Below are positions 5,314-56,752 of a stretch of 64,000 nucleotides of DNA, one piece after another. The notes beneath the pieces are model-generated. The model saw only the letters and a list, made by a program, of their open reading frames with translations, was not told where the DNA came from and made no database searches. Position 1 is the stretch's first letter, and each line of letters opens with the position of its first letter. This DNA is from Miscanthus floridulus (lineage: Eukaryota > Streptophyta > Magnoliopsida > Poales > Poaceae): NCBI RefSeq assembly GCF_019320115.1, contig NC_089581.1, forward strand, positions 70,452,448 through 70,516,447. The letters are read 5' to 3'. The translations under genes were made by a program, and so were the position numbers.

Positions 5314-5635
5314 AGTACTAAAAAAATTCCAGAAAACATAGGGTCTGGAAAGCGAATTTACAGTGGTAAATTCATCTACAACAGTACATGTCATGATTTA
5401 TTTCTTGATGACACATGGGTCTCAAAAATACTTATTTACAGGAGGTAAATATTATGCATCATAATGCATTTTAAATCTAAGGTGTAAAATGAGCATTTAC
5501 GTGGGGTAAATATAGTACACCGCAGTATGTTAAAACCTGAGGGCTTAAACATAAATCTGGAATACATCAATAATCTATTAGGATTATCATGTAATTCATA
5601 GGAGAATGAAGGATTTTTTGTGCAAATTTGCACTG

Positions 5636-6677: not shown

Positions 6678-7250
6678 GTAAGAACCACGTACCTGGGTAA
6701 AAGACACCGGTACCCACGCCTATGCTATCCGCACCACATCCTTTTCCCCTTCGTCGCGCTGCTTCTTCTCACTCGCCGCCGCCACCCGTTTCTGCCGCTC
6801 ACCACCGCCTAGTACGCCCGCACCCCCGTCCTGCTACTCCACTCCTCTTGCGCTTGCGGACGGCCCCTGGCACGGCGCAACCACGTGGGAGGCTCCGCGG
6901 ACCAAGCTGGGCCTAGCGACGGGATGACACACCAGCGCGGCGCAGCGGCATCGCAGAGGCTGGCCACGCGCGGCGGCGGCAGGGCGTGCGCCGCTTGTCG
7001 AGGGGCGTGCCTCCTTGGAGATCTGGTTGGCGTGCTACTCACGTCCTTGGGGAGAAATTTGTGGGTGCTGCCTCCGCCGCCGACGTCGGACCTAGTGCTC
7101 CATCAGTTGCCGCCGACGTCGGATCTGGTGCTCCATCAGTTGCTCGTGCCTGCTGACGGATTTCCTCCCAACGCCGTCGAGCAACTAGACCCGGTCGCCA
7201 GCATCAACGAGCTGGGAAACAAGCTCAGGGGGCATAAATGACTTTGTATT
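6678..7250 (+). other. GC-rich, CpG-rich stretch without recognised gene
   Basis: It resembles a grass 5'UTR/first-exon composition. Plus-strand ORFs at 6722-6916 and 6885-7241 are low-complexity (Pro, Ala, Arg) and match nothing I know. A 33-bp direct duplication (ccgccgacgtcgga..tagtgctccatcagttg) lies at about 7078-7143. It could be the remains of a gene's first exon. Confidence 0.35.
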
Positions 7251-8569: not shown

Positions 8570-8589
8570 GAACAAACCTTTGATCTAAG

Positions 8590-8885
8590 GGCTAAACCGG
8601 GCTCTAGTCTCGGGAAATATTGCGCCGGGACTAGAGAGACATTTAGTCCCGATTGGTGGCTCCAACCGAGACTAAAGGTCTCTGCCCAACGGCTCCTGCG
8701 CCAGGCTGTTGTAGCAGGGGACCTTTAGTCCCGATTGAAGCCACCAACCGGGACTAAAGGTCGACCTTTACTCCCGGTTGGTGGCTCCAACGGGAGTAAA
8801 TCTCTTGTCCCGGCTAGTGGCGTGGCCCGGGACGGGAAAGTGACCTTTAGTCCCGGTTGGATCCACCAACCGGGACTAAAGGCCC
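8590..8885. repeat. CACTA-1 5' subterminal repeat array
   Basis: The words tagtcccg(g/a)ttgg and ccaaccgggactaaagg alternate and form short palindromes at about 8640-8680, 8718-8760, 8763-8800 and 8843-8882. Such subterminal motifs are transposase binding sites in CACTA elements (established for En/Spm and its relatives). A TATA-like tataaat follows at 8889. Confidence 0.85.
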
Positions 8886-8888
8886 CCC

Positions 8889-11417
8889 TATAAATCCTGC
8901 TGGCCGTCTTCTTCCTCCCTGAGCCCGCCCGAGAGCTTCAGTTCAAATTTAAGTAGTGTTCTTGCTCTTTCTCCATCCATTCTTCGATTCCTCCATCGAT
9001 TTCTTCGATTCCTCCGTCGATTCTTCGGTTCTAAAGGTTACCAACTTCGTACTCTCATGTTTCACCATTGTCTTATCTCATTTTGTTCACTATATATATA
9101 TATATATATGTGGTTTTTTTTCATTTGTAAGCAATTTGAGCTCAAAATCACTTCAAGCTTGCATATTTACATGAAGTAAGGTTAAAGTAGCTATTAAAAA
9201 CTAGTATTCACCGTTCATTTGTAGCATGCATAGCACACTTCATTGTTTAGAGATATAGAGAATATAAGAGTTTTTTAATTTTATTTGTTTATAAAAGGAG
9301 AAATTTATAGTGTATTAAAAAATGAGTATAGGGACTAGTGCCTCCGACTGGTATGACAGATGCAATGCAAGGCCGTGCAATATGAAGCAAATCTGTTCTC
9401 TTTTAACGATACGTCCGAACAGCCGGGCCTGACAGATTTGGTGGTTGAACGGGTCCGTCGGCCGTCACCGTGCGACTGTACGACAAAGAACGGCATCGAT
9501 CGACCATAGTATTTTATTGTCCGGAGTCCGGTCCGGGGTGCAATGCAACGCAATGACAATTGACAATGCGTTGCAAGGTCAAAATATGGTCATTTCTATG
9601 GACTCCGCGACTAAACATTTTATTTTAACTTTTTATGAAATAAAAAACTTAGAAAATAGTTAGAAAATTATAAAAAATCCGTACTAGTTGAACTTGCGGA
9701 CCGTGTTCATTTCGGCGAGTATATTCTCTGCCGAGCGGTAACGGACATCAAGGAGGAGCTTTGATTCTACGAGGGAGAGCGGCAACGGTCGTGGAAGACC
9801 GTGTTCCCTTCCTCGTAGAATCGGAGCTCTTCCTTGACCAAGTATGGTGTCGTCCGGTGGAGAAATGCTCGCCGAGATGATCATGTAAGCAATGTCAACT
9901 AGTACGGATGGTTATTTATTGAAACATGTTTTTGAGCTATAAATCTTGCTGGCCGTCTTCTTCCTCCCCGAGCCCGCCCGAGAGCTTAAGTTCAAATTTA
10001 AGCAGTGTTCTTGCTCTTTCTCCATCAATTCTTCGATTCCTCCATTGATTTCTTCGATTTCTTCGTCGATTCTTCGGTTCTAAAGGTTACCAACTTCATA
10101 CTCTCATGTTTCACCATTGTCTTATCTCATTTTGTTCACTATATATATGTGGTTTTTTTTATTTGTAAGCAATTTGAGCTTAAAATCACTTCAAGCTTGC
10201 ATATTTACATGAAGGAAGGTTAAAGTAGCTATTAAAAACTATTATTCACCGTTCATTTGTAGCATGCATAGCACACTTCATTGTTTAGAGATATAGAGAA
10301 TTTTAGAGTTTTTTTTTAATTTTATTTGTTTATAAAATAAGAAATTTATAGTGTATTAAAAAATGAGTATAGGGACTAGTGCCTCCGACTGGTATGACAG
10401 ATGCAATGCAAGGCCGTGCAATAGGAAGCAAATCCGTTCTCTTTTGACGATACGCCCGAACAGCCGGGCCTGACAGATTTGGTGGTTGAACGGGTCCGTC
10501 GGTCATCGCCGTGCGACTGTACGACAAAGAACGGCATCGATCGACCATAGTATTTTATTGTCCAGAGTCTGGTCCGGGGTGCAATGCAACGCAATGACAA
10601 TTGACAATGCGTTGCTAGGTCAAAATGTGGTCATTTCTATGGACTCCGCGACTAAACATTTTATTTTAACTTTTTATGAAATGAAAAACTTAGAAAATAG
10701 TTAGAAAAGTATAGAAAATCTGTACTAGTTGAACTTGCGGACCGTGTTCATTTCGGCGAGCATGTTCTCTGCCGAGCGGTAACGGACATCAAGGAGGAGC
10801 TTTGATTCTACGAGGGAAAGCGGCAACGGTCGTGGAAGACCGTGTTCCCTTCCTCGTAGAATCGGAGCTCTTCCTTGACCAAGTATGGTGTCGTCCGGTG
10901 GAGAAATGCTCGCCGAGATGATCATGTAAGCAAGGTCAACTAGTACGGATAGTTATTTATTGAAACATGTTTTTGAGCTATAAATCTTGCTGGCCATCTT
11001 CTTCCTCCCCGAGCCCTCCCGAGAGCTTAAGTTCAAATTTAAGCAGTGTTCTTGCTCTTTCTCCATCCATTCTTCGATTCCTCCATTGATTTCTTCGATT
11101 CCTCCGTCGATTCTTCGGTTCTAAAGGTTACCAACTTCATACTCTCATGTTTCACCATTGTCTTATCTTATTTTGTTCACTATATATATGTGGTTTTTTT
11201 CATTTGTAAGCAATTTGAGCTCAAAATCACTTCAGGCTTGCATATTTACATGAAGGAAGATTAAAGTAGCTATTAAAAACTAGTATTCACCGTTCATTTG
11301 TAGCATGCATATCACACTTCATTGTTTAGAGATATAGAGAATTTTAGAGTTTTTTAATTTTATTTGTTTATAAAATGAGAAATTTATAGTGTATTAAAAA
11401 ATGAGTATAGAGAGTAG
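8889..11417 (+). repeat. 2.4 tandem copies of a 1041-1049-bp promoter/5'UTR block
   Basis: Each unit begins with tataaatc and ctgctggcc. Starts are at 8889, 9938 and 10979, so the period is 1049 then 1041 bp. Copies 1 and 2 are complete; copy 3 stops after about 440 bp where the GRF gene begins. Each full unit also has a hairpin with 12-bp perfect arms (gattctacgagg/cctcgtagaatc) at 9763-9822 and 10804-10863. Units differ by scattered substitutions and a (TA)n in copy 1 at about 9090-9109. Since each begins with a TATA-like box, the block multiplies the element's promoter. Confidence 0.9.
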
Positions 11418-16106: not shown

Positions 16107-16631
16107 CCTCTGCGCCCGCCTCGGCCCCTCTTCTTCCTCCTCCCCACTGCCGAGCCAAGCCCTAACAGACCGCCACCGCTCGTTCGATCCGCTGCCGACG
16201 CCACACCTCATGAGCATCCGCACGCGCATTGGCGCCCCACCGCCCTGACATCACGCGCTCGCCGACACGCCGCCCCCCGACCACCCCAGCCCATCCCCGC
16301 TCCACCGCGGGCCGTCCCCGCCCCGGCCCCGCTCCACCGCGGCTAGCCCTGCTCTGCCGTGGCCCTCCCGGCCCTGCTCCACCACGGCCGTCCCCGCCCC
16401 GGCCCCGCTCCACCGTAGGGCAGTAGAGGAGAGAAGGGAGAAGGAAGAAGGAGAAGGGAGGAGAAGGAGAAGGGAGAAGGAAGAAGGAGAAGGGAGGAGG
16501 AGCCTCGGCCACTGGCCATGCCCCTCGCCGCCTCGACATCACCGCCTCTGGACGCCCATCACCGCCGACCCCTACGTACGTCGATCGTCACCGCCGACCC
16601 CTACGTACGTCGATATGTGTTTGTATGTGAT
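16107..16631 (+). other. CpG-rich leader of the second CACTA-1 gene
   Basis: Very GC-rich DNA, with repeated ccccgccccggccccgctccaccg phrases near 16300-16415 and a purine-rich gaaggagaaggga run at about 16430-16500. A duplicated phrase accgccgacccctacgtacg occurs at about 16560-16610. The ORFs here are low-complexity. I regard it as 5'UTR or promoter-proximal sequence. Confidence 0.45.
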
Positions 16632-17083
16632 ATATGCAGAGGAATGCCTCGTTGTGTTGTATGCGGAGCAACACCGCCTCATTGTGTTGTATGCGGAGCA
16701 ACGCCGCCTCGTTGTGTTGTATGCGGAGCAACGCCACCTCGTTGTGTTGTATGTGGAGCAACATCACCTTGTTGTTGTATATACGGAGCAACGCTGCCCC
16801 GTTGTTGTATATGTGGAGCAACGCCGCCTCGTTGTGTTGTATGCGGAGCAACGCCATCGTTGTGTTGTATGTGGAGCAACGCCGCTTCGTTGTGTTGTAT
16901 GCGGAGCAATGCCGCCTCGTTGTGTTGTATGCAGAGCAACGCCACCTCGTTGTGTTGTATGCGAAGGAACGCCGCCTCATTGTGTTGTATGCGGAGCAAC
17001 GTCGCCCCGTTGTTGTATATGCGGAGCAACGCCGCCCCATTATTGTATATGCGGAGCAACGCCGTCCCATTGTTGTATACCCT
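16632..17083. repeat. Minisatellite A, ~30-bp unit, about 15 copies
   Basis: The unit is approximately gttgtatgcggagcaacgcc followed by gcctcgttgt, length 27-30 bp. Since 30 is divisible by three, every frame without a stop in the unit stays open, and four or five overlapping ORFs appear on both strands. These are artefacts of the repeat. It lies between the internal promoter and the Transposase_24 start. Confidence 0.9.
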
Positions 17084-17357
17084 AGCGAGAACAATGATTC
17101 GCCCTAGCAAGAACGACGATTCGCCCTAGCGAGAACGACGAATTCGTCCTAGCAAGAACGACGAATTCGTCCTAGCGAGAACGACGATTTACCCTAGCGA
17201 GAACGATGATTCGTCCTAGCGAGGACGACGATTCGCCCTAGCGAGAACAACGAATTAGCCCTAGCGAGAACGACGAATTTGCCCTGTCGTTCTCGCTAGA
17301 GCGAGTTGTCGTTCTCGCTAGAGGGCGAATTCGTCGTTCTCGCTAGGGCGAATTCGT
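17084..17357. repeat. Minisatellite B, ~23-bp unit, ending in inverted copies
   Basis: The unit ccctagcgagaacgacgaat(tcg) is repeated about nine times to about 17282, then about three times in opposite orientation (gtcgttctcgctag...cgaattcgtc) to 17357. The two parts can fold into a hairpin of several units. It abuts minisatellites A and C. Confidence 0.9.
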
Positions 17358-17685
17358 CGTTTATATGACTTGTTTACATATATGACTTGTTTATATATAT
17401 GACTTGTTTATATATATGACTTGTTTATATGACTTGTTTACATATATGACTTGTTTACATATATGACTTGTTGACATATATGATTGTTTACATATATGAA
17501 TTGTTTATTTATATGACTTGTTTATATATGTGACTTAGATTTATTTTGTTTATGACTTATTGTACATATATGACTTGTTTACATATATGACTTGTTTATA
17601 TATATGTGACTTAGATAAATTTGTATATGACTTATTGTATATATATGACTTGTTTATATATGTGACTTAAATTTTGTTAAATTTG
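17358..17685. repeat. Minisatellite C, ~20-bp AT-rich unit
   Basis: The unit atatatgacttgtttacat, with ttatat variants, is repeated about 14-15 times with interspersed longer variants (tatgtgacttagat). It ends only a few bases before the ATG at 17692, so it would be the 5'UTR of the following gene. Confidence 0.85.
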
Positions 17686-23399: not shown

Positions 23400-23735
23400 T
23401 AGAAACAGTAGGTATGCCGAGTGTCTGGTATTTTGCCGAGTGCATTTCTTCAGGCACTCGGCAAACAGTATCTTTACCGAGTGCCTACATGTAAAAACTC
23501 GGCAAAACAAATGCACTCGATAAAAAAAAACTTATTTGTCAAGTGCAGAAAATAAAACACTCGACAAACAACAATAAGACACTTGGCAAAGAATAGACAC
23601 TCGGCAAAAGGTCGCCACGTGTGCCGGCCGTCGACCAGGGTGGTGGCCGTTAGTACTTTGCCGAGTGTTCTTATCTGGCACTCGGTAAATAGGTTCATTT
23701 ACCGAGTGTTTTATTTTGGCACTCGGCAAGTTAAA
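23400..23735. repeat. CACTA-2 5' subterminal motif cluster
   Basis: The 11-12-bp motif tttgccgagtg(t/c) and its complement occur about ten times in both orientations, with decayed copies such as aagacacttggcaaag. A second cluster at 25715-26035, after the 678-bp repeats, has the same motif. These are the presumed transposase binding sites. Confidence 0.85.
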
Positions 23736-23740
23736 AAGTT

Positions 23741-25712
23741 TTTTTCCTCCCCTGACCTTGAAACTTTTTCTACACTCCATATACAACATGTGGTACTCAA
23801 TGTTAAAATTTAGTATATTTCTGGATCTGTTTGCTATATTTAATTAATTTATTGCCTTTAAAGTATTTTTTTGCTATAAGTTAAATTTGAACTGCAAGTG
23901 ATTCAAATAATATAATAAAATAAGTACAAAAATGATATTCATGTTATTGAGAACCGTGTGAGGCCATATCCGAGAAATGAAAGGAAATTTTGAACATCTT
24001 GTTCACGAAACCCGACCACGAACGTGTAGCCGAATGATTTTTAAATTCTTAAAAAAACAAACGAAGTCTGAAAATCATGAGATTTGTCAAGATCTCATGA
24101 TATCATACGTGGAGGCCATGGTAAAAAAATGAGAAGGTTTCGCACAATCAGTCATGTATGATGTTTACAAACCGAAGTATCTCAGAAGAAGAATCCTATC
24201 ATTGAGAAGGATTCGGTAAGATTTGGAGTCAAAGTGACGGTCGAATTAGGGTTTGACTTCAAAACTTTTTGTATATGCAATAGAGAACATAGATTAATTC
24301 ATGTGTAATTTTGGTAAATTTTTTGATCCATTCGATAATTTTAATTTGTTAAGTGCAGTTATAGAATTTTAATTGATATACATTGAATTTGAGCTACAAC
24401 TATATGAAATAATAAGTTTTTTTCCTCCCCTGACATTGAAACTTTTTCTGCACTCCACATACAACATGTGGTACTCCATGTTAAGATTTGGTATATTTCT
24501 GGATTCTGTTTGCTATATTTAATTAATTTATTGCCTTTAAAGTAAATTTTTTGGTATAAGTCAAATTTGAACCGCAAGTGATTCAAATAATATAATAAAA
24601 TGAGTAGAAAAATAATATTCATATTATTGAGTCCCGTGTGAGGCCTTATTCGGGAAATGAAAGAAAATTTTGAACATCTTGTTCACGAAACCCGACCACG
24701 AACGTGTGGCCGAATGATTTTTAAATTCTAAAAAAACAAACGAAGTCTGAAAATCATGAGATTTGTCAAGATCTCATGATATCATACATGGAGGCCGTGG
24801 TAAAAATTGAGAAGGTTTCACACTATCTGTCACGTATGATGTTTACAAGCTGAAGTATCTCACAAGAAGAATCCTAGCGTTGAGAAGGATTCTATAAGAT
24901 TTGGAGTTAAAGTGATGGTCAAATTGGGGTTTGACTTCAAAACTTTTTGTATAGGTAATAGAGAACATAGATTGATTCATGTGTAATTTTGGTAAATTTT
25001 TTAATCCGTTCGATAATTTTAATTTGTTAAGTGCAATTATAGATTTTTAATTGATATACATTGAATTTGAGCTACAACTGCATGAAATAATAAGTTTTTT
25101 TCCTCCCCTGACCTTGAAATGTTTTGTACACTCCACATACAACATGTGGTACTCCATGTTAAGATTTGGTATATTTTTGGATCCGTTTGCTATAATTTAA
25201 TTAATTTATTGCCTTTAAAGTAATTTTTTAGTATAAGTCAAATTTGAAATGCAAGTGATTCAAATAATATAATAAAATGACTAGAAAAATGATATTGATG
25301 TTATTGAGTCCCGTGTGAGGCCTTATCCAGGAAATGAAAAAAATTTGAACATCTTGTTCACGAAACCCGACCACGAACGTGTGGTCGAATGGTTTTTAAA
25401 TTCTTAAAAAAACAAACGAAGTCTGAAAATTTGAGAACAAGATGTCACATATGATGTTTACAAATCGAAGTATCTCAGAAGAAGAATCATAGCGTTGAGA
25501 AGAATTCAGTAAGATTTGGAGTCAAAGTGACGGTCGAATTGGGGTTTGACTTTAAAACTTTTTGTATAGGCAATTGAGAACATAGATTGATTCATGTGTA
25601 ATTTTGGTAAATTTTTAGATCCGTTCGATAATTTTAATTTGTTATGTGCAATTATAGAATTTTAATTGATATACATTGAATTTGAGCTACGACTGCATAA
25701 AATAATAAGTTT
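23741..25712. repeat. Three tandem copies of a 678-bp noncoding unit in CACTA-2
   Basis: The marker cctcccctga(c)cttgaaa occurs at 23746, 24424 and 25102, exactly 678 bp apart both times. Other shared phrases include cgaaacccgaccacgaacgt. Copy 3 lacks about 70 bp (after gtctgaaaat). The unit is AT-rich and has no coding potential I recognise. It splits the 5' subterminal motif cluster in two. Confidence 0.9.
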
Positions 25713-35631: not shown

Positions 35632-36972
35632 CTACAGAACAGGAAAAAACATACTACCTGGATAAAAAATATCACACCCTAACTAATGATATCTCTAGTG
35701 TTCAGGGTTATACCATCAGAAAGGTCATCAGAAGGGCTAGGGGCAGGAATTTTAAGTATACTACTGACACTGTGATGCAGTAACAAGGACTTAACCTGCA
35801 ATAGAAGGCAATGCCGCAGATGAGAATACATGAAGATAACTGCGCTCTTGAAAGCTGTCAAGACAAACATTTATGCAACTCAAACTTCACAGCAACTTAA
35901 AAGCTAACCTTACTGTTGGATGCCATCAATGGACTAGTAACTTCATCCCAAGTCCATCTACGTGCTTGACCCTCTGGTGTCACCGGATGTCCATACCTGA
36001 TGTAAGGAGGGTCGATGGGACTACTTGACACTATACACCATAAGAAAGAGAAAATTACAAGTTTGATTTTAGAAATTTTGAAGCATGAGTTTAGTACCAG
36101 TTTACAACTATAATTTTTGAAAGACCAATTTACAACTATAATTACCAGCAAGAACATTGTTGCCATCTAATGCAAGAGCACTCCATGAGTAATATGAGTC
36201 TTCCGGAGTTATTCTTGTTACTTTGCCACTGTAAAATGAATCAATATAGGATATCAAAGTGGTTCTTTGAGCTCTGGAACAGGATTACACCAACACCCTA
36301 TGATTTACCTTAAAACATCTATTGATAATATCACTTCAGTACTTCTCCAAGCAGATGTTAATATCATTGTGCATCCATCAGAGAGCCAAGGATCGGATAG
36401 CATGGATGAACAATAGAGGCCTGGAAAACAGCCATCTTCAGGGCACATTACAATAGGCACCTGGGACAGTTCAAAAGCTACTCAGTGAACAGGCTGCAGA
36501 ACATAACCAATAATTTAGTCAAGAAAATTTTCCTCAAAAAACAAATAATCAAGAAAAAAATAGATGGGCATACCACTTCATTAACATCGAGTTGTTTATC
36601 CATTTTCCATTCTGAAGGCCAATTGATTATATGCAGGGAATCCGTTGCATTATGTGCACCACTGTCTACAGCCTGTTTTGAAGATAGAAACACCAGAAGT
36701 TTTCCATCCCGGATGTTAATTTGTATAATTATTCAGATAAAGGCCATCAGGGGTCCAACATCAAATCTACTGGAACACTAGTACAAACATACCTGGACCG
36801 TGGAAACAAAGCACTGCTAAAGCCTGTGGTTAAGTTGCGCACTACTACACCGGAGTCTGATTTACCATCACTGGTAAAGGGAAATAACATATTATACAAA
36901 ATGGTACCTGACGATGCTACTAAGTACTGACAAATGCACAGTCAAAGGCCCAAAGTTGTTCTTTCTATTTCA

Positions 36973-37207
36973 GCGCGTGTTTAGTTTAGGGAATTTGGGC
37001 TACTGTAGCACTTTCGTTTTTATTTGGTAATTAGTGTTCAATCATGAACTAATTAGGCTCAAAACGTTCGTATCGTAATTTCCAACCAAACTGTGCAATT
37101 AGTTTTTTTTTCGCCTACATTTAATGCTCCATGCACGTATCGCAAGATTCGATGTGATGGGTACCGTAGCACTTTTTTGGGAATTTGGGGTTCAACTAAA
37201 CACGCGC
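36973..37207. mobile_element. 235-bp MITE in an AARE intron
   Basis: The ends are inverted: gcgcgtgtttagttta at 36973 and aactaaacacgcgc ending at 37207. Both are flanked by tca. The internal phrases ctactgtagcactttcgttt and ccgtagcactttttt are typical of a very abundant grass MITE. It lies between AARE exons 4 and 5 and should not affect coding. Confidence 0.8.
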
Positions 37208-37727
37208 TCAACATAACAACGATAACTGATAGGCTGACTCTGAAACTGCAGAGTACAAACTCTAAAGTTATGAATCATGATTTTAAGAGGGATGCTCACC
37301 TAGCTGGTGTATTGTCAGGCTCGGATCCTTCAAAAGGGCAAGGAATTGCATAAAGAGCACATGGCCTGTTAGAACAGTACTTGATACCAAGTTTTCTAGC
37401 AGTGTTCTGGAACCCGTTGTGTTCTAACCATCCAACGAAAACCAGATACTTTTGACTTCCACTTGATGATGCTGGAGCCCAAACAACATGGCCAACACTC
37501 AATGATGTTGAAATGCCTTTAGCCGCTCGTACTTCTCTGCATACACCAAAGACAGCAGCGGGTCTTAGGCTTGAAGCCATATTTCCTGATCTAGGAACTA
37601 GCTTTTACAAACTGTTGTGTTGATTAATAGGCATGGAACAGACCTGGCAATGTCAAGAACAAACAATGAGAGTCTCCCTTTATTGGAGTATCTTTCACCC
37701 CAGTCCTCTTCCCAATCGCCCTGTCCT

Positions 37728-38006
37728 CACTGGCGGAGCCAAGGGGGGGCTGGCAGGGGCCATGGCCCCCCCATGTTTCACAATAAAAAAAATTAGTAGT
37801 ATGACTTAATATTTTTTATTTATATTAAGAGGAAGATTATATAAAATTCTTGTTATATATACCTATTAATATCTTCTAGATAATATAATTATACAAAACA
37901 CAACTAGATAATAAAATTATCGCAATGAAAAAGACCGAGCCGGCCCCCCCTAAGTATAATTCCTGACGGCTGGCCCCCCTGAGTATAAATCCTGGCTCCG
38001 CCACTG
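37728..38006. mobile_element. 279-bp hAT-type MITE in AARE exon 3
   Basis: The ends are cactggcggagcc and ggctccgccactg, near-perfect inverted repeats. The 8-bp direct repeat cctgtcct lies on both sides (37720-37727 and 38007-38014), the hAT target length. Subtracting element plus one repeat copy leaves a 222-nt exon whose frame reads CNTWKGQGDWEEDWGE without interruption. It introduces stops into AARE. Confidence 0.93.
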
Positions 38007-38757
38007 CCTGTCCTTTCCAGGTATTACAGTCTTCCTCAGAAGAACCTTCCCTTCTATATCCAGAATGATTAAAAGCTGGATTTGGTTCGGTAGGAGCTTC
38101 AGCAATATATGCTATCAAGGTCTCTTCTTGATTCCAAGAAATACCATGAAACCTGTAGCAACAAGAATAGTGATGTACTGTCATGCAACTGTAGCTGTGG
38201 AAAGCAAAGGTAGAAGTAAATCCAACCACTATGTTTTACTTTTTAGTTTTTCCTCACCATTCATCGGTATAAAGAGGGCCATGCATAGACTTCACTACAT
38301 GTATCTCCTCCACATGTGATTGATAAACAATTTCAAGCTTAGTGGGGCAACCTTTCTCCCCGTTTCGCACTACAAGAAGCTTCGATCCCGAAGGGGATGG
38401 AACAATGACAGACTCCAGTTATCTCAGTGGGGAAAGGAGACCACTGGAAATCCAGAGAGTTGGTGCCAGCTCTTGTAATATGAGAATACAAAATGTATTT
38501 TCTGTTGCTGTTCGCCAGTAGGTCTGGCTGGCTAACAGAGAACATTGCTGTGGATCTGTCTTCTGCAATAATAAATTAAGCACTGTTTAGAACTTTGATA
38601 TGAATTCTGAGAGATCAGAGAAGTATATGATGATTATGGACAAAGGAAGTAAAGTGAAAAGACTGTCCATACCATTGTTGGTTTTTAGGATCAAAGCACT
38701 ATCAATGCTTGGGACATTGGTAAATTCTTGCAGTAACTTGGATTGGGAGGCATATTC

Positions 38758-38994
38758 TGTTGGAGGTAACACAGACTTGATTAGCCTGAAAAGCCACAAA
38801 CCCCAGGCCGTCTCCTTGATTATATATAGAGATAGACATTGTATTGATTACAAACAGCTCACTAGAGCATAGCTAATCAGATAGGTGCCTTGGCAGCCGT
38901 ACACACCTCTTGGGCTGCCCAAGGTCTTTAATGACTGTAATTAACTAGCATAGTTATCTAGGAAGTGCTTAGGAAGCAGGGCTTATTAACTACA
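38758..38994 (-). repeat. Left (3') LTR of the inverted-LTR Copia, with PPT
   Basis: On the minus strand it reads TGTAGTTAATAAG ... ACCTCCAACA, with a tctatatataatc TATA box about 85 bp from the U5 end. The polypurine tract ttagggggagaaa (complement of 38995-39007) directly precedes it, after the pol stop. This is the normal 3' arrangement. Its promoter points into the rest of AARE in the sense direction. Confidence 0.93.
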
Positions 38995-39015
38995 TTTCTC
39001 CCCCTAAGACCTGCT

Positions 39016-42000
39016 TCAACTAATCTTGATCTCCTTGATCCCAATCCTGCTCCTCATCTCTTCCAGCTTGGTTTTGCCCAAGGCTTTAGTCAGTATATCA
39101 GCGAGCTGATCTGCAGTGGGAATGAACTCTGTCTTGATGCTACCTTCTTCCACACAATCTCTGATGAAATGATGCTTGATTCTAATATGCTTGCTCCTGT
39201 CATGGAAAACAGGATTCTTTGCCAAAGCCAGAGCAGACTTATTGTCTACTCTGAGTTCCACCACCTCAACTTTTCTTCCCAACAAATCTGCAAACAGTCT
39301 TGACAACCACAAAGCTTGGGTTGCAGCTGTTGTCATCGCCACATATTCAGCCTCACAGCTAGACAGAGCAACAACTCTCTGTTTGACAGACTGCCAGCTG
39401 ACCAGGCTGGTTCCAAGGAAGAACAAACATCCAGTTGTGCTTTTGCTTGAATCAACATCTCCAGCCAAATCTGAATCACTGTAACCCACAAACCTTGCTT
39501 TGCCTGTTGTTCTGGTGTAGCAGAGCCCATGATCTAGAGTACCAGCCAGGTATCTCAAGATCCTCTTCATAGCCTGAAGATGTTCAGTTGTTGGCTTCTC
39601 TAGAAATCTGCTAACATACCCTACAGCAAAAGCCAAATCTGGTCTTGTGTGCACTAGGTATCTCAAGCTGCCAACCAGTCTTCTGTACTGAGTTGGATTT
39701 ATTTCCTTTGCTGTGCTTTCCTTGCTCAATTTCAACCTTTCTTCCATGGGTGTGGTGGCTGGATTACAACCTACCATACCACCAAGCTCAAGTATCTTCT
39801 TAGCATAATGGGTTTGCTTCAGAGTGATGCTCCCCTCTGATTGTCTCACCTCAACTCCCAGATAGAAAGACAGAAGACCCAAATCACTCATTTCAAAGGT
39901 TTGCTTCATCTTTGCCTTGAAAGCTTCAATCTTCTGCTGATTGACTCCTGTGATGATCAAATCATCAACATAGACTCCAATTACCAGTAGGGAGTCACCT
40001 GATCCCTTCGTACATAGCAGCTTCATACACATTCTGCTCAAAACCCATCTGCTTGAGAGTCAAGTCAAGCTTGGCATTCCATGCCCGAGGAGCCTGTCTT
40101 AGGCCATACAGAGCCTTGTGCAGCCTGTACACTTTCTTCTCCTCTCCTGGTACTACAAAACCTGGAGGCTGTGTAACATAAACCTCCTCCTGGAGTTCTC
40201 CATTCAAAAATGCAGACTTCACATCCATGTGATGTACTACCCATCCCTCTTGTGCTGCTAGGGCAAGCAAAACACGCACTGATTCCATCCTTGCAACCGG
40301 TGCAAAAGCATCTTCATAATCAACTCCTTCCTGTTGCACAAAACCACGGGCCACAAGTCTTGCCTTGTGCCTAATTACAGCTCCATGTTCACCCTTCTTC
40401 AGCTTAAACACCCATTTCAGTGAAATTGGACGGTGACCAGGACGGGGAGAAACAAGTTCCCAAGTCCCATTCCGCTCTACTGATCTCAGCTCCTCCTTCA
40501 TCGCTGCTTGCCAATCTGGATCATCTTTGGCTTCTTCATAGCTTGTAGGCTCACCAGAATGGGTGAGATTCAGTTCTATAAACAGCCGCTGCGCCGGCGG
40601 AGGGGTTGGCTGATCACCAATAATGTCATGAATCTTCCGATAGCGGAGTTCTTCATCGTCGTGGCAGGCATCCACCCTTTCATCATCATCCTCCAAGGGG
40701 GTCACATGCTCAACCTGAGGACTTGCTGGAGCTGGTGTAGGTGTTCTGGGCGACGCAGGCACCTCTGCCTCCGCTGCGGTCTCCTCTGCTTCCGCTGCAG
40801 GCTCTCCTTCATTCACCGGAGAGAAACCAGGCGATGCAAGATGTGGCGGAGGAGATAGTGAAGGCGACGCTGAACTTCCTGCTTCAGGGAGTTCCTCCGC
40901 CCATGGGAATTCAACAGTAAACTCACTGCTCGCTGCTTCTGGTGTGCCTGCTGCCGGTGATGCCCAGTCCCAGCCGCGGCCTTTGTCGAACACCACATCG
41001 CGGCTGACACGCACGCGCTGGGACACTGGATCATAGATACGGTATGCCTTGGCCCCTTCCGCATAGCCGATAAACACGCCAGCCTCGCCGCGGTCATCGA
41101 GCTTGCGAAGCTGAGTAAGCTGCCGGGTATAAGCCACACAGCCAAAGACCTTGAGGTGGCCGACTGTTGGTGCCCGGCCGTGCCACGCCTCATAAGGAGT
41201 GGCATTCTTCAGCGCCTTCGTCGGGGATCGATTCAGAATGTGCACAGCCGTCATCACAGCCTCCCCCCAAAACCGAGAGGGCATCTGGCGTTGCTTGAGC
41301 AAAGCTCGTGCCATGGCCACCACTGTTTGGTTCCTGCGCTCAACAACACCGTTCTGTTGCGGTGAATAAGGGGCACTGAAATGCCGTTTAATACCTTCAT
41401 CAGCGCAGTATGCAGTAAACTCCGCGACAGTGAATTCGCCGCCATTGTCGGTGCGCAGGACCTTCAACTTGCGCCTGCTTTCCACCTCTGCTGCCACCTT
41501 GACCTTCTTAATTGCTTCTGCTACTGCGTCCTTGGATGGCAGCAACACAGCCCACATAAAACGGGTGGCGTCATTGACGAGCAGCAAGATATAACGGTTG
41601 CCCGCCGGTGTCGCTAGCGTGACCGGACCGCACAGGTCACCGTGCACCAGCTCAAGCTGATTCTGGGCACGGTATGCTGCTGCAGCCGGAAAAGAACGCC
41701 GCCTCTGCTTGGTGGTAACGCAGGTGTCACACACCTGCTCAACATGGTCAACCACCGGCATCCCGCGCGCCATCTCCTCCTTGCTGAGTCGCCGGAGTGC
41801 GTCGAAGTGCAGATGGCCGAAACGCTCGTGCCACTGCCACGCCTCTTCATCCTTGCGTGCCACAAGACAGAGAGGTTGTGCAGCCTCAAGATGCAGAATA
41901 TACAACCTATTCTTCCCTCTGTGTACCTTGGCGAGCAGACGGCGGCTCTTGTCCCAAATGCGAAGCACGCCATCATCAATCACAACCTTGGACCCTCCTT

Positions 42001-42590
42001 CATCAAGCTGTCCCAGACTTAGGATAGAGTTCTTCAGTGCCGGAATGAAGTAGACGCCATGAAGAACCCTCTGCTCACCGGTCTTGGCTTGGAAAACAAT
42101 AGACCCGACGCCCTTGATCTCTACCTTCGACGCATCCCCGAACCGGACCGTTCCTCGAACGCCAGTGTTCAGATCAGCAAAGAACTCTTGGCGCCTGGTC
42201 ATGTGATGCGTCGCGCTGGAGTCCAGGTACCAGCCGCTGTCCACCTCTTCTTCGTCCATGCCGAGATAGGCGCGAGCACGTGGCTCGGAGAACTCGACGT
42301 GCTACGCCGTGTAGCTGTGCGCCAGCGTGCTCTGTTCCAGGCTAATGAAGCCATGTGCCAGAAATAGAGCGCCATCTTCATCGCACTCGGCGTACTAGGC
42401 GCGCGCCTCATGCCTTCCTTGGTTCCCGCCACGCTGCCCAGCCTGATTTCCGCCGCCACGACCTCCACCACGATTGCCACTGCCGCGGCCAGTACGGTTT
42501 CCACCTCCACCGCCGCGCTCTGCATCTTCACGGCGCGGCTGGGGACACTCACGTGCCCAGTGACCCTCCTGGTTGCAGTTGAGGCAGGTG
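39016..42590 (-). pseudogene. Copia gag-pol, truncated at gag
   Basis: From the high-coordinate end: a zinc knuckle CLNCNQEGHWAREC, a Gly/Arg-rich tail with stops, protease WYLDSSATHHMT (Ser where Gly is expected), and integrase with its HHCC zinc region and catalytic contexts VHGDLCGP, LRTDNGGEF and NGVVERRNQT. Next come RT (HMDVKSAFLNGEL, YGLRQAPRAWN, YVDDLIITG) and RNase H (SDSDLAGD, SSCEAEYVA). The 754-codon frame 42259-39995 is open. A frameshift near 40010 separates it from the RT-RNase H frame ending at 39016. Gag before the knuckle is absent. Confidence 0.92.
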
Positions 42591-42603
42591 TTAGGGGGAG
42601 AAA

Positions 42604-42839
42604 TGTAGTTAATAAGCCCTGCTTCCTAAGCACTTCCTAGATAACTATGCTAGTTAATACCTTCATTAAAGACCTTGGGCAGCCCAAGAGGTGTGTACGG
42701 CTGCCAAGGCACCTATCTGATTAGCTATGCTCTAGTGAGCTGTTTGTAATCAATGCAATGTCTATCTCTATATATAATCAAGGAGACAGCCTGGGGTTTG
42801 TGGCTTTTCAGGCTAATCAAGTCTGTGTTACCTCCAACA
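42604..42839 (+). repeat. Right LTR, inverted, with its own PPT
   Basis: The plus strand reads PPT ttagggggagaaa (42591-42603), then TGTAGTTAATAAG ... ACCTCCAACA. It matches the left LTR's reverse complement with about three differences over 236 bp (two transitions and a small changed patch near 42658). A normal element would have this LTR in the opposite orientation, followed by a primer binding site. None is present. Confidence 0.93.
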
Positions 42840-42865
42840 TATTCTTCAGATGTCATTGCATCCAT

Positions 42866-43520
42866 TCTGAGTGGGTTCTCTTTCTCCCAAGACATGCACA
42901 CTTTTATGACCCACTGGAGGGGCAAACTTTACTAGGCTAAGCTAGATCTGCAGTTTACAAAGACATATGTTACACATATTGTAGGATTGCAGCAAATTTT
43001 GCTGCCAATACATTAGGGCACATGCAATGTATGGATAGCAGTCAAGCTCCATTAAGCACACTAATCAGTCTCACCTAAACTCTTATTTGGTTACAGCTTG
43101 CTATGCAAGTCAATTTTCAAGAGGTTTGCAGTATCAAGGTTCTGACTAGTTTAATTTCAAAACAAATACCAGTCTTACTTCTTCACGAATTCCATTAAAA
43201 ACCTTGCATTTTCAATATACAAAATTCATGAAAAGATGAAACACTAAAGAATCTAAGATGGAAATCATTGAGTGTCGGTGATAGTGCCTGAGTGAGACTA
43301 ACTGGACACAACTTCCTGTATTGCCACCTGACCTCCCGAATTCACCTACTGCAAGAGTGCAAAAGTTATATGAAGTCGGAAGTCAAGTAATTCTACTTAC
43401 TAGGCTAAACTGATCGCAGTAGACATGAACTCATCTTGAACTAGAGTAAGCAGATGATTGAGTTAAGCCAAGTACAGAAGAAAGCAACCATATAGCCATA
43501 AAATTGTCCATAACATCAAA
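42866..43520. other. AARE upstream region
   Basis: Sequence upstream of the AARE ATG (42863-42865). A cataaaag string lies on the minus strand at about 42904-42911, about 40 nt before the ATG, but I cannot call a promoter. No other gene is seen. At 43521 it passes abruptly into the chromovirus LTR. Confidence 0.4.
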
Positions 43521-45396
43521 ACTTTCCTAGCTCAAGTTATCCATTTTACAAAATTGTAAACATTCAAGAAGCACTTATCTAGCTATATTTTATTCACCTA
43601 GAAAAGTACTAGAAATAGTGCATATCAATTTTTTATAAAATACTTTACTTCATGAGAAATCCAACAAAATTTGGTTCACCAAAATGGGACATTCCTAGAT
43701 CAAGATATGATTTTCCAAAGTTAGAACAAAAATCTATAAAAGAAATAACAAAAACCCTAAACCGCAGTCACTGATGTGTGGGACCCAAGTGTCAGCGGGG
43801 TCCACCTGTCAGCCTAACCGAAATAGAGGGGCGCATTTGACCGGTGCTAGCTCGCCAACGGCGAGCTCTCTGACGAAACCGACCCACCTACGTGATCTAC
43901 TCACTAACATGCGTCGATTGGTACCCGTGGTGGCAGCGCGGACGCACCGGAGCTACCTCGTCGTTGGCCATGGTGGCACGGCAGCGCCACCCTGAGGTAC
44001 GACGGCCGCTACAAGCCATGGCAAGGCTCGGCGAGAAGTGCACAAGCTCCGCGGTGACCAAACGAGTCTACTGAGGCTACTTAGACTAGGTGACCAAATG
44101 AGTCTACTAGAGCTACCTCGTCGCCGGCCATGGCGGCACGGTGGCGTGGCGGTGAGAGCGCGACGGTGCTGCACGTCGTCTTCCATGCCGGTGAGGCAAT
44201 CGTTCACTGTAACGTCATACCCCAAGCTAGGACACACCCTAACCAAGCTCTAATGCGAAGAATAAGATGGAATGCTCAAGTGAGCTGAGCGGCGGCGAGC
44301 TCGCGTTGAAGGCGGCCATGGAAGCCGATGTATCGATGAGGACGAGAACGGCGATTTCGCCCTCACCGTAGCTCGCCTAGCCCTGCTACTGCGTCGAGGA
44401 GGTAGAGGAGAAGACAACACGGCTGCTAGCTAGATGGAGGTGACAATGGTGCGGTGGCACGGGCGATAGGCGATGGTGGAGCAGCGTTGTGGCTCAGCGG
44501 CGCTCGGTGCTTCCACGGTGAGAGCGAGAGAGAGCAGTGGAGAGGGAGAGAGCGCGAGGGAGTGAGCCAAATGGGCAGCGCAGCTCCTCCTTAAGCGCAC
44601 ACTAGTGCGCTGCGATGAGGGCCCGATGCCAGCCAGCGGCAGCCACACAGCGGCCAGGTGTTGTGCCTGGTCGGCCACGACACGGCACGACGCGGCTTCC
44701 ATCGGAGCCCAAAACAGCGACTGACAAAGCATTTTCTTTCCCTTCTAGATCCTAAACCATGATTAGTTAGCACAAACTCTATTAATAAAAGTTGGAGATC
44801 TATATACCAGCTAAAAATTACTTTAGAACTCATCTCCTAATTTGCAACGGTTATGGAGTTAAATCATCACAAAGTCAGGCATGTCAACACTGTCAGAGTA
44901 GTTAGAAAAAATTTCAAGTTCTAGAATCAGTACAATGTTGATACTTGTGATCCAAATTCAAGCATGTTAGGAGCTAAACTAGCCTATGACCCAAAAATAA
45001 AACTTGTTACACTACTTGAGTTCTACAACTTTGTTTTAGGGTACATAGCCATGCAAAGTTTCTAAAGTGATATTCAACTCTAGTCAACATACAACTTGAA
45101 AATGATGACTTACAGTATAACTATGACCTAGAGACCAAACTAGCCTTAGTCATGAATACCAAAGTTGTTCCTAGTAACATTTTAAACATGTTAAAGGTAC
45201 TCCTAGGGTTCCACAATTATTTCATACATTGGTTACATGTAAACCCTAACAAATGCAAGGCAATTTAGTGACAACACATGCAATATAATCCAACATAGAG
45301 ATAATAATTGAGATGCTCATGCTCATAAAGGATCAATGATGCTTATGCTCATGCAATGCCAAGGCCAAATGCAAGCTTAACACCTAGGGTGTTATA
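43521..45396 (-). repeat. Truncated 3' LTR of the chromovirus
   Basis: It is collinear and highly similar to 54891-56752, for example the shared cctagctcaagttatccatt and gtgtgggacccaagtgtcag. It ends (minus-strand start) in TATAACACCC where the other LTR has TGTAACACCC. The U5 portion of about 2.8 kb present in the right LTR (52084-54890) is absent. Plus- and minus-strand ORFs inside, such as around 44000-44700, are LTR sequence and not genes. Confidence 0.88.
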
Positions 45397-52083: not shown

Positions 52084-55000
52084 TGTCGCAGAACCGACCA
52101 ATTTATAAGAGCACAAGTACAATGGTAGTCCGCAAGCGGTCGCACTGTCGTACTTGAGCCCATATAAACCTGGTAGTCCGTTGAGTACCACGACGGGTCT
52201 CGATTAACGATCCACATAGAACCAAGATCGTACATGATTCAACATATATGTCACATGTTACATAAAGTTCACAGATATAGTTCATTCATTAGAGTACGAA
52301 ATAAGGTTATTACAAACCAAGTTCGATAGATAGTAGCGAAAGCAAATTAAAGTCCAAAACTAGCATTTGCCAACATAGTTCAAATACAGTGCCAACTCAG
52401 GATCACAATCCACAAAAGCATAATAGAAAGATTATTAAAGATGCCTACCTAGGGCTCACTCCTCATCCACGGCGGGATAGAAATAGTGCTTGCAATAGCC
52501 GTGATAAACTATACCATCTGCAACAATGGGAATAAAACCCTGAGTACGAGGAGGTACTCAGCTAGACTTACCCATCATAAACTAGAAATAAATTGACTCC
52601 AAGGATTATGCAAGGCTTTATAAGTGGAGGAAGCTTGACAACATTTTGCATAAAAGTGATTAACTTAGTTATACAAATATACTTTGGTCATCAAGTTAAT
52701 TATAGCTATTCATCTCTAGATTAGCAACTAACATGTGCCAAACATGAGGTATATCCTTTGATAGCATACAATAGCAACCATAGCTGGTGTAGTAATTTCC
52801 ATGTTTATCCGAACCATCACATTCCATAATACAATTAATACGATGTTGGGACTAGCCAAGTATCTCACTATCTGGGAGAGATGGTGATTCGAATTGATTT
52901 CAACCAGCTGATAATTTATTCCTAGCACAAACCCAGGCAGACCAGATCAACGGTCACCTTAGGTCACCTTTGGTACAACTCAAGTCCACATTTCATGGGT
53001 TCACCTAGCGCCACATAATCAGGGACAACCAGCTGCCACGACGTTTAGGCCTGGCCTTCCCTTGGGCTCACATCTGGCTCCCCGCATATCCTTACTACCA
53101 TCCAGAGTGCGCACTTTTATAGAATGGGGCCCGACCTAAGTTGAGCTACTCGGCTTCACGGTTGGAATGAGTTATCCGTCCAGCTAAGTGAGAGGCATGC
53201 GTTCAATCTTGTCAAAAGCACCAACAATGGTATGGTCCTTAATCGGCATAGACAGAATCACATGAGTCAACCTACACATAGACCCTATCTGGCCTCCATT
53301 TGCATTGCCCCATGGTTCTTTTCCACGATAGCAAATATAGCCAACCGTGCTTCGGTATCCATCTATATCTCGCAGGTGACAGGAAATCACTAGACTTCCA
53401 CCGGTCTAAGCATGGCTAAGCATATATTCGATCCTAGACCTACATACCATTAAAGGTGTATATATCTAGATAAGGTAGTTCCATGCATCAAGTGTTTCCA
53501 ATCAACTCTTATAACCTAATGCATCAAACATAAAGGACTCAAATAATCTTTTTGTAAACATGGGAGACTTAGAATGCTCCAGGGCTTGCCTTTGAGTAAA
53601 GAGGTGGGTCGGTGATCTAGGCACTCAGGGAGCTCTTTGAGAGTCTGCTCCTCTTCTCCTAGAGCTATGGCTTGAGGAGTCTCCTACTGACCCTCCTCCT
53701 CTTCTTCGTTGAATTCCATCAACGTTACCGCTTCAGACGATCCTATATGCATGAGCATGAAATAAGTTATCATGAATGCATATACGATGACACATGTAAT
53801 ATGATATAACATGATGAATGCATCCTCATAAGTACTTTCAATAGCATGGTATAAAAGTAATAACAAGTGCATCTCATTTTACTAAGTAGGTGCATATCTC
53901 ATCTCTATTACTTAAGCAAACACTTATGTAATCTATTTACCGGACTACAAGACAACAGCTAATTGTTTTGACCATAACTGGAGTTATATACATCAAAATA
54001 ATATGGTTGTGGACATTCTGGAAAGCTTATGAAATTTTCTACAATTTTCTTTTAATACCCTCAATGTGATTCAATAGTTATCTAGGTAAAACAATTCAGT
54101 TAATCAAATCTATCCAGAAAGTAAACATTTCAGACAGCAAACTTCTAACATCCAAAACTCTTAAACCCTAACGTCTATCACTATGAAAATTTAACACAAG
54201 ATAGATCAGTAAGTTATCTACAACTTTGTTATAAACAAGTTTTATAGAAAAGGCCATTATCAATATGAAATTATCAACTCAACCGAAACTATGCATACAG
54301 CCATTTATTTGAATTATAAAGCAATAATTAATTAGTTGCATATAACCAATTTCTTCTAAGCCTTACTACTAACATCAACAGTTCATATGCATTACAAGTA
54401 CCTTAGAAAAAATCATGGTCAAGCACAATTTATTTATTTAAATGCCTTTATTAATTTAATTAGATAATTAAGTGAAATAAAAAACATATACCAAATTTGC
54501 ACAATAAATTAACATAAAATTACATTAGCTTCCAAGTACACCCAATAGACTACTATAAAAATTTCATACCATTTGGACGTGTATAACATCCTCTACAAAA
54601 ATGACAAGCTAGCAAGGTTTATTTTAATAAAAATAGTTAACCCTATAGAAAAGTGTCAAGCAACAGATTCTATATTTTTCTTAGCTCCTTCCTAGTGCCT
54701 TAATACTGTACAAAAATTTGCAGGGCAATATGTTTCTTATTTTTATCCATATAATTTTCCTCAGAAAACACCATTTATTAATAGATAAATAGAAAGACCC
54801 TATTTCAATCAAGTTTACGGCAAGTTTATTATTTTTCCTAGCTAGAGCATGTCAACACAAGACCAACAAAATTAGAATCATAATTTTATCACTTTCCTAG
54901 CTCAAGTTATCCATTTTACAAAATTGTAAACATTCAAGAAGCACTTATCTAGCTATATTTTATTCACCTAGAAAAGTACTAGAAATAGTGCACATCATAT

Positions 55001-56752
55001 TTTTATAAAATACTACACTTCATGAGGAATCCAATAAAATTTGTTTCACCGAAATGGGACATTCCTAGATATAGATATGATATTCCAAAGTTAGCACAAA
55101 AATCTATAAAAGAAATAACAAAAACCCTAAACCGCAGTCACTGACGTGTGGGACCCAAGTGTCAGCGGGGTCCACCTGTCAGCCTAACGAAAATAGAGGG
55201 GTGCATTTGACCAGCGCTAGCTCGCCGACAGCAAGCTCTCCGGCGAAACCGACCCCACCTATGTGATCTACTCACTAACCCATGTCGACTGGTACCCGTG
55301 GTGGCAGCGCGGACGCACCGGAGCTACCTCATCGCCGGCCATGGCGGCACAACGCTAAGGTACGTCGGCCGCTACAAGCCACGACAAGGCTCGGCGAGAA
55401 GCGCACGAGCTCCATGGTGACCAAACGAGTCTACCGAGGCTACTTAGACTAGGTGGGATGCACCGACGAGGGCTGTCCACGTGCATGGTGGCACGGCAGT
55501 GAGAGCATAGCGACGCTGCGCGTCGTGTTCCACACCGGCGAGGCAACAGTTCACTGTAACATCATACCCCAAGCTAGGGCACACCCTAACCAATCTCTAT
55601 TGCGAAGAATAAGATGGAATGCTCAAGTGAGCCGAGCGGCAGCGAGCTCGCCGTGAAGGCGGCCATGGAAGACGATGTTCCGGCAAGGACAAGAACGGCG
55701 ATTTCGCCCTCACCATAGCTCGCCTAGCCCTGCTACTACATTGAGGAGGTAGAGGAGAAGATGCCATAGCTACTAGCTAGATGGAGGTGATAATGGCGTG
55801 GTGGAGTGGGCGCTAGGTGATGATGGAGCAACGTTGTGGCTCGGCGGCGCTTGGTGCTTCTGCGGCGAGAGCGAGAGAGAGAGCAGTAGAGAGGGAGAGA
55901 GCGCGAGGGAGTGAGTGAAATGGGTAGCGTAGCTCCTCCTTAAGCGCACGCCAGCACACTGTGATGAGGGCCCAACGCTTGCTAGAGGTGGCCATGCGGC
56001 GGCCAGGTTGTGTGCCCGGTCGGCCACGACATGGCGCGACGCAGCATCCATCAGAGCCCGAAACAGCGACTGATAGAGCATTTTCTTTCCCTTCTAGATC
56101 CTAAACCATGATTAGTTAGCACAAACTCTATTAATAAAAGTTGGAGATCTACATACCAGCTACAAAATTGCTTTAGAACTCATCTCCTAATTCACAACGG
56201 TTTTGGAGTTAAATCACCACAAAGTCAGGCACGGCAACACTATCAGAGTAGTTAGACTTAGAAAAATTTTCAAGTTTCAAAATCGGTACAATGTTGATAC
56301 TTGTGATACAAATTCAAGCATGTTAGGAGCTAAACTAGCCTATGACCCAAAAATAAAACTTGTTACACTACTTGAGTTCTACAACTTTGTTTTAGGGTAC
56401 ACAGCCATGCAATGTTTCTAAAGTGATATTCAACTTTAGTCAACATACAACTTGAAAATGTTGACTTACACTATAACTATGACTTAGAGATCAAACTAGC
56501 CTTAGTCATGAATACCAAAGTTGTTCAAAGTAACATTCTAAACATGTTAAAGGTACTCCTAGGGTTCCACAATCATTTCATACATTGGTTACATGTAAAC
56601 TCTAGCAAATGCAAGGCAATTTAGTGACAACACATGCAATATAAGCCAACATAGAGATAATAATTGAGATGCTCATGCTCATAAAGGATCAATGATGCTT
56701 ATGCTCATGTAATGCCAAGGCTAAATGCAAGCTTAACACCTAGGGTGTTACA
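52084..56752 (-). repeat. 5' LTR of the chromovirus, 4669 bp
   Basis: On the minus strand it starts TGTAACACCCTAGG at 56752 and ends ggttctgcgaca at 52084. The distal 1.86 kb matches the 3' LTR; the proximal 2.8 kb has no partner in this window. It contains no coding region I trust. If the primer site at 52070 is correct, the whole stretch is one LTR. Confidence 0.75.

Follow-up and report, generated by a model that had tools for sequence, protein, structure and literature searches.

Inverted LTRs and two outer U5 ends in a truncated Ty1/copia element of Miscanthus floridulus, probably produced by a strand switch in reverse transcription

A truncated Ty1/copia element with inverted LTRs, one polypurine tract (PPT) per LTR and U5 at both outer termini (TGTTGG... 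and ...CCAACA) was identified at 38758-42839 of the window, the 64,000-nucleotide stretch of Miscanthus floridulus DNA analysed here. It was inserted as one unit in one integration event. Very probably this copy, from a low-copy Ty1/copia family, was dead on arrival, having been made by a strand switch in reverse transcription and inserted by integrase via two identical U5 ends.

The left LTR (38758-38994, minus strand) and the right LTR (42604-42839, plus strand) both read U3-R-U5 with the U5 end outward. The PPT GGGGGAGAAA is found on the U3 side of each; that of the left LTR lies at 38995-39004 (minus strand) and has 2 mismatches to the junction pattern. BLAST paired 42577-42839 in inverted orientation with 39021-38758 (264 columns, 97.3%) and a repeat finder gave the same arms, which bears out the inverted LTRs with a PPT each that the sequence-only reading had described. 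On the minus strand between them are pol, with GAG-pre-integrase, integrase core, SH3-like and reverse transcriptase domains (39995-42301), its frame broken relative to the open frame of the pol 3' part (39016-40059, RVT_2, from the end of the reverse transcriptase domain onward), and a CCHC zinc knuckle (42539-42592), the final gag sequence ahead of the inner junction (42577-42603, plus strand), which runs into the PPT at 42594-42603. Integrase precedes reverse transcriptase in a single pol frame (rve residues 217-314, RVT_2 611-764).

The element shares the pol order, the PPT and the 5-bp duplication with Ty1/copia, but its LTRs are inverted and lack the direct orientation with outer U3 and outer U5 of that group, both outer ends are U5, no 5' LTR is in place, and the PBS and about 1.2 kb of leader and gag, with most of gag, are missing. 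These losses had been claimed before. The PBS TGGTATCAGAG was not found in the element at up to one mismatch; its single match in the whole window is at 52071. Of the 16 control LTR pairs, 15 had direct LTRs, U3 at one outer end and U5 at the other, and a 5-bp duplication without mismatch; the remaining pair is two LTRs 20 kb apart. TGGTATCAGAG or a variant adjoined the 5' LTR in 15 of the 16. Because both of its LTRs point outward, the window copy is not expected to make normal genomic RNA.

The element is flanked by TATTC at 38753-38757 and 42840-42844 (both plus strand), so the perfect 5-bp duplication reported earlier stands. The three further copies of the left flank that a genome search turned up are all empty paralogous sites, each with a single TATTC, and the joined window flanks agree with the empty site at C2:73.4 Mb at 199 of 200 positions. 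It means that the structure entered in one integration, and the empty sites exclude chance. The joining of two U5 ends by integrase, also proposed from the sequence alone, gains support from the empty sites and from the exact boundaries between LTR and duplication; insertion of the window element by copia integrase through two identical U5 ends is thus well supported, as judged from these sequence features. Purified Rev-A integrase is reported to join two U5-mimic ends in vitro in a concerted reaction with a 5-bp duplication (PMC3790719). The locus is known here from assembled sequence, and an assembly error or chimera might be considered. It is exceedingly unlikely, as three paralogs confirm both flanks, the homology at the junction and the exact duplication at the boundaries are biological signatures, and a second locus carries the same junction.

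The two window LTRs differ at five aligned columns, by 4 substitutions and the loss of a single base; the sequence-only reading had counted about three events. The changed state is in the right LTR at four columns and in the left LTR at one; four of the five changed states were found in 0 of 37 other LTR rows and the fifth in 1 of 37. These 37 rows represent 35 places, with two LTRs fetched twice and matches shorter than 200 bases dropped (L014 gave none). Two minority states relative to the other LTRs are common to both window LTRs, which is expected if one LTR was copied from the other or if both came from near-identical RNAs. The window LTR sequence is 97-99% identical to the other scored LTRs (best 40 of 157 candidates).

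The inner junction lies in the best match between gag and the PPT flank. It carries gag-type bases at 42583 and 42590 and is PPT-type from 42593 onward. The homology at the window junction is 18/20, as the sequence-only reading had counted, but in the parental sequences it is 17/20: the antisense strand of the zinc knuckle agrees with the PPT flank at 17 of 20 positions in 26 of 28 normal gag loci and at one less in the other two. In the normal-gag reading, this 17/20 pair is the best 20-base inverted match of the PPT flank to pol/gag, and 1 of 200 dinucleotide shuffles attained it. Within the 1.5 kb beside the gag break in one normal copy, the 30-mer that terminates at the break ranked 1 of 1481 when scored by its energy of pairing to the PPT strand. 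When 16-base windows including the LTR were compared, the site 42335 also reached 14/16, equal to the junction site. Position 42593 is A in the window junction, whereas the second junction copy and all 28 of the 28 normal gag loci have G; to account for this A, either the primer ended earlier or the base mutated later.

In the proposed course, minus-strand cDNA synthesis would start at the tRNA, pass U5-R, U3, PPT and pol, enter gag, and stop at or just beyond the zinc knuckle. The cDNA 3' end (...AGTTGAGGCAGGTGTT[GGGG]) would anneal to the PPT-flanking stretch of minus-strand DNA, for which 39002-39021 (minus strand) is the proposed annealing site pairing with the gag zinc-knuckle strand. The partner might be its own 5' part, by fold-back, or a sister cDNA in the same particle. 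Extension by reverse transcriptase across PPT, U3, R and U5 as far as the tRNA end would yield a molecule whose LTRs are inverted and which lacks the 5' leader. Once the second strand was made and the tRNA removed, two U5 ends would be left, and integrase would join both with the normal 5-bp stagger. The order of synthesis and the identity of the template strand are what we infer. Of the strand switch or fold-back suggested before, the switch ahead of integration at the gag/PPT match is kept and is well supported by the empty sites, the exact boundaries and an independent second instance of the junction; fold-back is not distinguishable here from switching to a sister minus strand.

A self fold-back hairpin has a single duplex end, and extra steps are needed for a two-ended linear duplex. 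Sister-strand switching avoids this single-end problem.

Strong RNA structure beside the gag break is not established as a cause for reverse transcriptase to pause there. The 120-base RNA at the break folds at -50.4 kcal/mol, no better than shuffles (z -0.69, 41 of 200 as stable). In one normal copy, the most stable of the 25 24-mers tested there fell in the lowest 2.6% of all 24-mers of that copy, which is a biased and loose measure.

Autointegration, in which an activated cDNA end attacks its own cDNA and the product integrates, is a known source of circles with inverted LTR arrangements. It would join the LTR terminus TG/CA straight to an internal site, however, and at the inner junction the PPT is complete and the homology stretch beyond the LTR is still present. 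Since PPT and flank are kept, autointegration is refuted unless a second rearrangement is assumed, and as an origin of the window element it is scarcely credible.

The strand switch is also recorded at a second place. Genome-wide scanning of the 2.68 Gb Miscanthus floridulus genome for the inner junction pattern found it matched perfectly twice, in the window and at C18:75.15 Mb; in the search for the junction by similarity, the best 40 of 264 candidates were scored. The element at C18 is scrambled: it has three LTRs, the outer ones direct and the middle one inverted, and a CTATT duplication of its own. Two empty sites were found for this insertion, and its joined flanks agree with C18:75.38 Mb at 200 of 200 positions. 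The two empty sites were the full-length non-self matches among 84 in the flank search (best 40 of 1550 candidates); the remaining matches fall on a repeat within the flank. Sequence of the PBS and tRNA end is fused to gag in this element at nearly the same gag point as the junction, which points to reverse transcription.

The two pol 3' segments of the C18 copy differ at 6 of 752 positions. At three of the six, the odd state was found in 0 of 24 rows, and at the other three in 1 or 2 rows; these rows include the window, with two places fetched twice, and the comparison used 20 fetched 3' segments (L090, with no 650-base match, was left out). The C18 gag part with its LTR is 97.3% identical to the normal copy L020, whereas C18 pol differs from L020 by 0.7%, so the gag part is possibly from another parent. 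Two different co-packaged RNAs may be the source of the C18 copy.

A normal insertion with a later local inversion was already raised in the earlier reading; here it would mean that the 5' LTR was turned round in place and that leader and gag were lost. The outer breakpoint would have to sit exactly between LTR and duplication, the inner one would have to coincide with the best gag/PPT match, and C18 holds the same junction within an element from one integration event, which leaves this course highly improbable.

In the sequence-only reading, a second copy of the junction with a different duplication would have been a sign of repeated mobilisation. In that case an inverted-LTR parent would be read through and copied with the help of a normal element, and the window and C18 would share an ancestral junction. 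The same inner junction is indeed present on two contigs with different duplications, and the two junctions are only one base apart. But the tree of the flanking 1.58 kb of pol/gag puts the window and C18 in different subgroups, with the window in a 100/100 clade of 9 normal copies and C18 outside it, and the AU test rejected a single clade of the two (delta lnL 79). This tree was reduced from 28 normal loci to 26 by dropping L015 and L018 (no 1200-base match); L020 and L024 are identical. Over the 100 bp closest to the junction, a single change separates the window from a normal copy, against 5 that separate it from C18, and all 12 non-majority states shared by the window and C18 are also in 11 or 12 of the 26 normal copies. 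To be rescued, remobilisation would need later gene conversion across all of the flanking sequence, and we consider it very unlikely. Since common ancestry is rejected, the phylogeny instead indicates separate formation at the same site, twice and before integration. These comparisons give good support to an independent origin of the two junctions, each at the point of similarity between the antisense gag zinc knuckle and the PPT flank.

Among the matches listed, the PPT reading of the window family occurs at 34 places in the genome. Exact U5 ends occur at 59 places: 42 make 21 direct pairs within 12 kb (paired by hand), 5 are in the two inverted-LTR loci (window 2, C18 3) and 12 are single or far apart. 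An inverted LTR is therefore found in 2 of 23 loci with at least two exact U5 ends within 12 kb, of which one is the window, picked for it; only exact U5 ends are counted, leaving out copies with a mutated end. A sister family, with the PPT followed by AGAACTGTAG, accounts for 61 of the 100 places listed in the junction pattern scan (110 counted). Its zinc knuckle matches its PPT strand at 16/20 in five of eight fetched stretches and at 11/20 in three. The pattern scan gave no sister-family junction at 0 or 1 mismatch; its gag half was that of the window family, so such a junction could be missed.

DIRS/PAT-like elements have inverted terminal repeats, a tyrosine recombinase and no target duplication. 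The window element is like them in its inverted termini, but has an rve integrase core and the TATTC duplication. Inverted circles and deletions were described in older retrovirus work. Among the open-licence papers that the searches listed, none showed by its title or the start of its abstract an LTR retrotransposon integrated with its LTRs inverted and U5 at both ends. Complex insertions made by template switching in Triticeae, rice and maize (Sabot and Schulman 2007, PMC1950507) carry three LTRs, all of them direct. Aberrant strand transfer in reverse transcription, single integration and 5-bp duplications are common to these complexes and the window element, which likewise shows one integration, a target duplication and near-identical outer LTRs. 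The window element differs in having two inverted LTRs and a probable switch onto minus-strand DNA, while the C18 copy has three LTRs too, but with the middle one inverted. Inversions within integrated proviruses are among the reverse-transcription defects of HIV-1 (PMC9278108); the passages considered here speak of inversions in the genome and of LTRs that are unequal, and do not describe a pair of inverted terminal LTRs with U5 at both ends.

The window element is a natural record of copia integrase apparently inserting two U5 ends with the normal 5-bp stagger, an arrangement that is used in in vitro assays, as with Rev-A integrase. In one family, reverse transcription very probably switched onto minus-strand DNA at least twice before integration, both times at the same fixed site of homology. 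With somewhat more doubt than confidence, we suggest that the antisense gag zinc knuckle might be a recurrent, sequence-encoded switch point, and that the family may keep making inverted-LTR cDNAs, some integrating via two U5 ends, as an overlooked class of LTR insertion. Annotation demanding direct LTRs would miss such insertions, but they could be counted by a signature that combines divergent PPT-LTR pairs, U5 at both ends and a short target duplication.

The insertion at 38758-42839 (4082 bp) has the target-site duplication TATTC on both sides (38753-38757 and 42840-42844). Its minus strand encodes GAG-pre-integrase, integrase core, SH3-like and RVT_2 domains in a single frame (39995-42301), an additional RVT_2 part beyond a frame break (39016-40059) and the CCHC zinc knuckle of gag (42539-42592), and the class matching this domain order is Ty1/copia. 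The left LTR has the normal orientation relative to the coding strand, and the right LTR is its reverse complement, facing outward on the plus strand. U5 lies at both outer ends and the polypurine tract (PPT) GGGGGAGAAA at both inner ends, so the element's sequence confirms the inverted arrangement described in the sequence-only reading. Because both LTRs face outward, this copy is not expected to produce its own genomic RNA.

Normal copies in the same genome, with direct LTRs, are about 5.3 kb (e.g. C8:58773888-58779183). Compared with them, the window copy has no 5' LTR in the proper place and has lost some 1.2 kb of the leader and gag, and no primer binding site (PBS) was found inside it, which bears out the earlier claim that the proper 5' LTR, the PBS and most of gag were lost. 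The inner junction is within the zinc knuckle. At this point the gag strand reads GGTGTTGGGG then CC in normal loci (28/28 examined), and GGTGTT, then AGGGGGAGAAATGTAG, then PPT and U3 in the window copy.

Sixteen control LTR pairs were put together by position from the LTR search (best 40 of 157 candidates). In 15 of them the LTRs are direct, one outer end is U3 and the other U5, and the 5-bp duplication is perfect; the 16th was two LTRs 20 kb apart. A genome scan with the last 21 bases of U5 at zero mismatches gave 59 places, sorted into 21 direct pairs (<12 kb), 12 single or far apart, and only two inverted-LTR loci, the window and one on contig C18. Therefore LTR inversion in this family is exceptional, yet not unique.

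The left flank had three other genomic copies (C2:73.40 Mb, C1:73.27 Mb and C1:86.23 Mb). All three paralogous sites are empty, with the left flank running straight into the right flank and a single TATTC, and the joined flanks are identical to the C2 paralog at 199/200 bases. Therefore the whole inverted-LTR structure entered as one insertion and gave a duplication of the family's usual kind. Between the two LTRs there are 4 substitutions over 236 columns and one deleted base, which gives about 0.7 million years at the rate used for LTR dating, 1.3e-8 per site per year. The right flank differs from the nearest empty paralog at 22 of 1439 positions, an age roughly equal to the LTR-based one, which would make the insertion only slightly younger than the duplication that gave this paralog.

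The insertion-site segment (36347-44276) had three further genomic copies, of which one shares its contig and two lie on a different large contig; this suggests segmental duplication, perhaps old polyploidy. At 37728-38006 there is a small DNA-transposon-like (MITE) insertion of 279 bp, absent at the three paralogous sites by alignment, with 8-bp flanks CCTGTCCT and terminal inverted ends CA[C/G]TGGCGGAGCC; from the 8-bp duplication, we take it to be hAT-like. The window also had a direct duplication of about 1.9 kb with 89% identity (43521-45394 and 54891-56750), and direct duplications with a dense repeat cluster (8888-11417, 23732-25712 and 16600-17670).

The junction search (best 40 of 264 candidates) revealed two junction-spanning places, the window and C18:75149993-75150151. 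A junction pattern scan (<=3 mismatches) counted 110 places; among the 100 listed, two had 0 mismatches, none one, 34 two and 64 three. The 34 two-mismatch places are PPTs of the family, including the left PPT of the window copy and two of the C18 copy. A sister family, found genome-wide with a nearly identical PPT flank (PPT then AGAACTGTAG), made up 61 of the 100 listed.

The C18 element occupies 2486-8846 of its fetched locus (L039, C18:75.15 Mb), with CTATT at each side. The two outer LTRs are in direct orientation and have the same sequence, and a third, inner LTR is inverted and one base off them. In coding sense it starts with 5' LTR, PBS and the first part of gag; tRNA-end sequence, LTR, PPT, pol and zinc knuckle follow in inverted orientation, and the remainder is the same gag/PPT junction, about 75 bases of U3, a jump back to pol 3', PPT and 3' LTR. 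PBS/tRNA-end sequence is joined to gag, and the gag parts meet at one gag point, GTCGG|CCCC (+/- few bases common to both sides). The joined flanks match C18:75.38 Mb at 200/200 bases, and this site and C19:66.25 Mb are empty paralogous sites with a single CTATT (best 40 of 1550 candidates). So the C18 molecule was scrambled before integration, as was that of the window copy. Base 42593 is A (PPT-type) in the window junction, whereas the C18 junction has G; the A would mean that the primer ended about four bases earlier, or else that this base mutated later.

The tree (1583 columns, 28 sequences) placed the window copy within a ten-member clade (100/100) with nine normal copies, and the C18 element outside it, adjoining normal copies L020 and L024 (88/72). 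Constraining the two together cost 79 log-likelihood units. In the 100 bases beside the junction, a single change separates the window copy from normal copy L011, against five for C18. The 12 minority states common to window and C18 are each also present in 11 or 12 of the 26 normal copies. By these comparisons, the inner junction arose twice. Thus the second junction copy, of separate origin in the tree, speaks for a hotspot and against the repeated mobilisation for which such copies had been proposed as a test.

The zinc knuckle and the PPT flank on the minus strand are alike at 17/20 bases in the sequence that most normal copies have; the match claimed earlier is present at the junction, with a parental figure lower than the 18/20 first given. 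This pair is the best 20-base inverted match of the PPT flank with pol/gag, and 17/20 was reached in 1/200 shuffles. A second site, at 42335, reaches the same 14/16 as the junction site when the windows are 16 bases long and the LTR is part of the comparison. A 16/20 version of the gag homology was found in 5/8 fetched stretches of the sister family. In one normal copy, pairing with the PPT strand was computed for 1481 30-mers of the 1.5 kb beside the break, and the 30-mer that ends at the gag break pairs most strongly (-18.9 kcal/mol). Against shuffles, the RNA at this break is not unusually structured (z -0.69), though local 24-mers there are fairly stable. Homology is the better supported cause of the switch site than RNA structure.

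In the proposed mechanism, minus-strand cDNA would extend as far as gag, and its 3' end would anneal to the PPT flank on minus-strand DNA and copy PPT, U3, R and U5. The template may be the cDNA's own 5' part (fold-back) or a sister cDNA in the same particle. Of the fold-back or template switch proposed from sequence, the strand switch onto minus-strand DNA is supported, and fold-back is not separable from sister switching. The latter would give two duplex ends more simply, as fold-back requires a loop to be filled and opened. Lastly, two U5 ends were joined to the target. Purified Rev-A integrase is reported to join U5-mimic ends in vitro, leaving a 5-bp duplication (PMC3790719), and one HIV-1 integrase/LEDGF complex to bind two U5 duplexes (PMC3623958).

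At the level of titles and abstract beginnings, the open-licence literature searched gave no integrated element whose LTRs are inverted and whose outer ends are both U5. Older retrovirus papers deal with inverted circles and deletions. Inversions are reported in HIV-1 proviruses (PMC9278108). Sabot and Schulman (2007) described complexes from grasses that arose by template switching and carry target duplications; these resemble the window copy in both respects but have three direct LTRs instead of inverted ones (PMC1950507). The interpretation first made from sequence is supported once three points are corrected, and the empty sites and the independent second junction add to its strength. The window copy represents a known type of reverse-transcription error in a new form.
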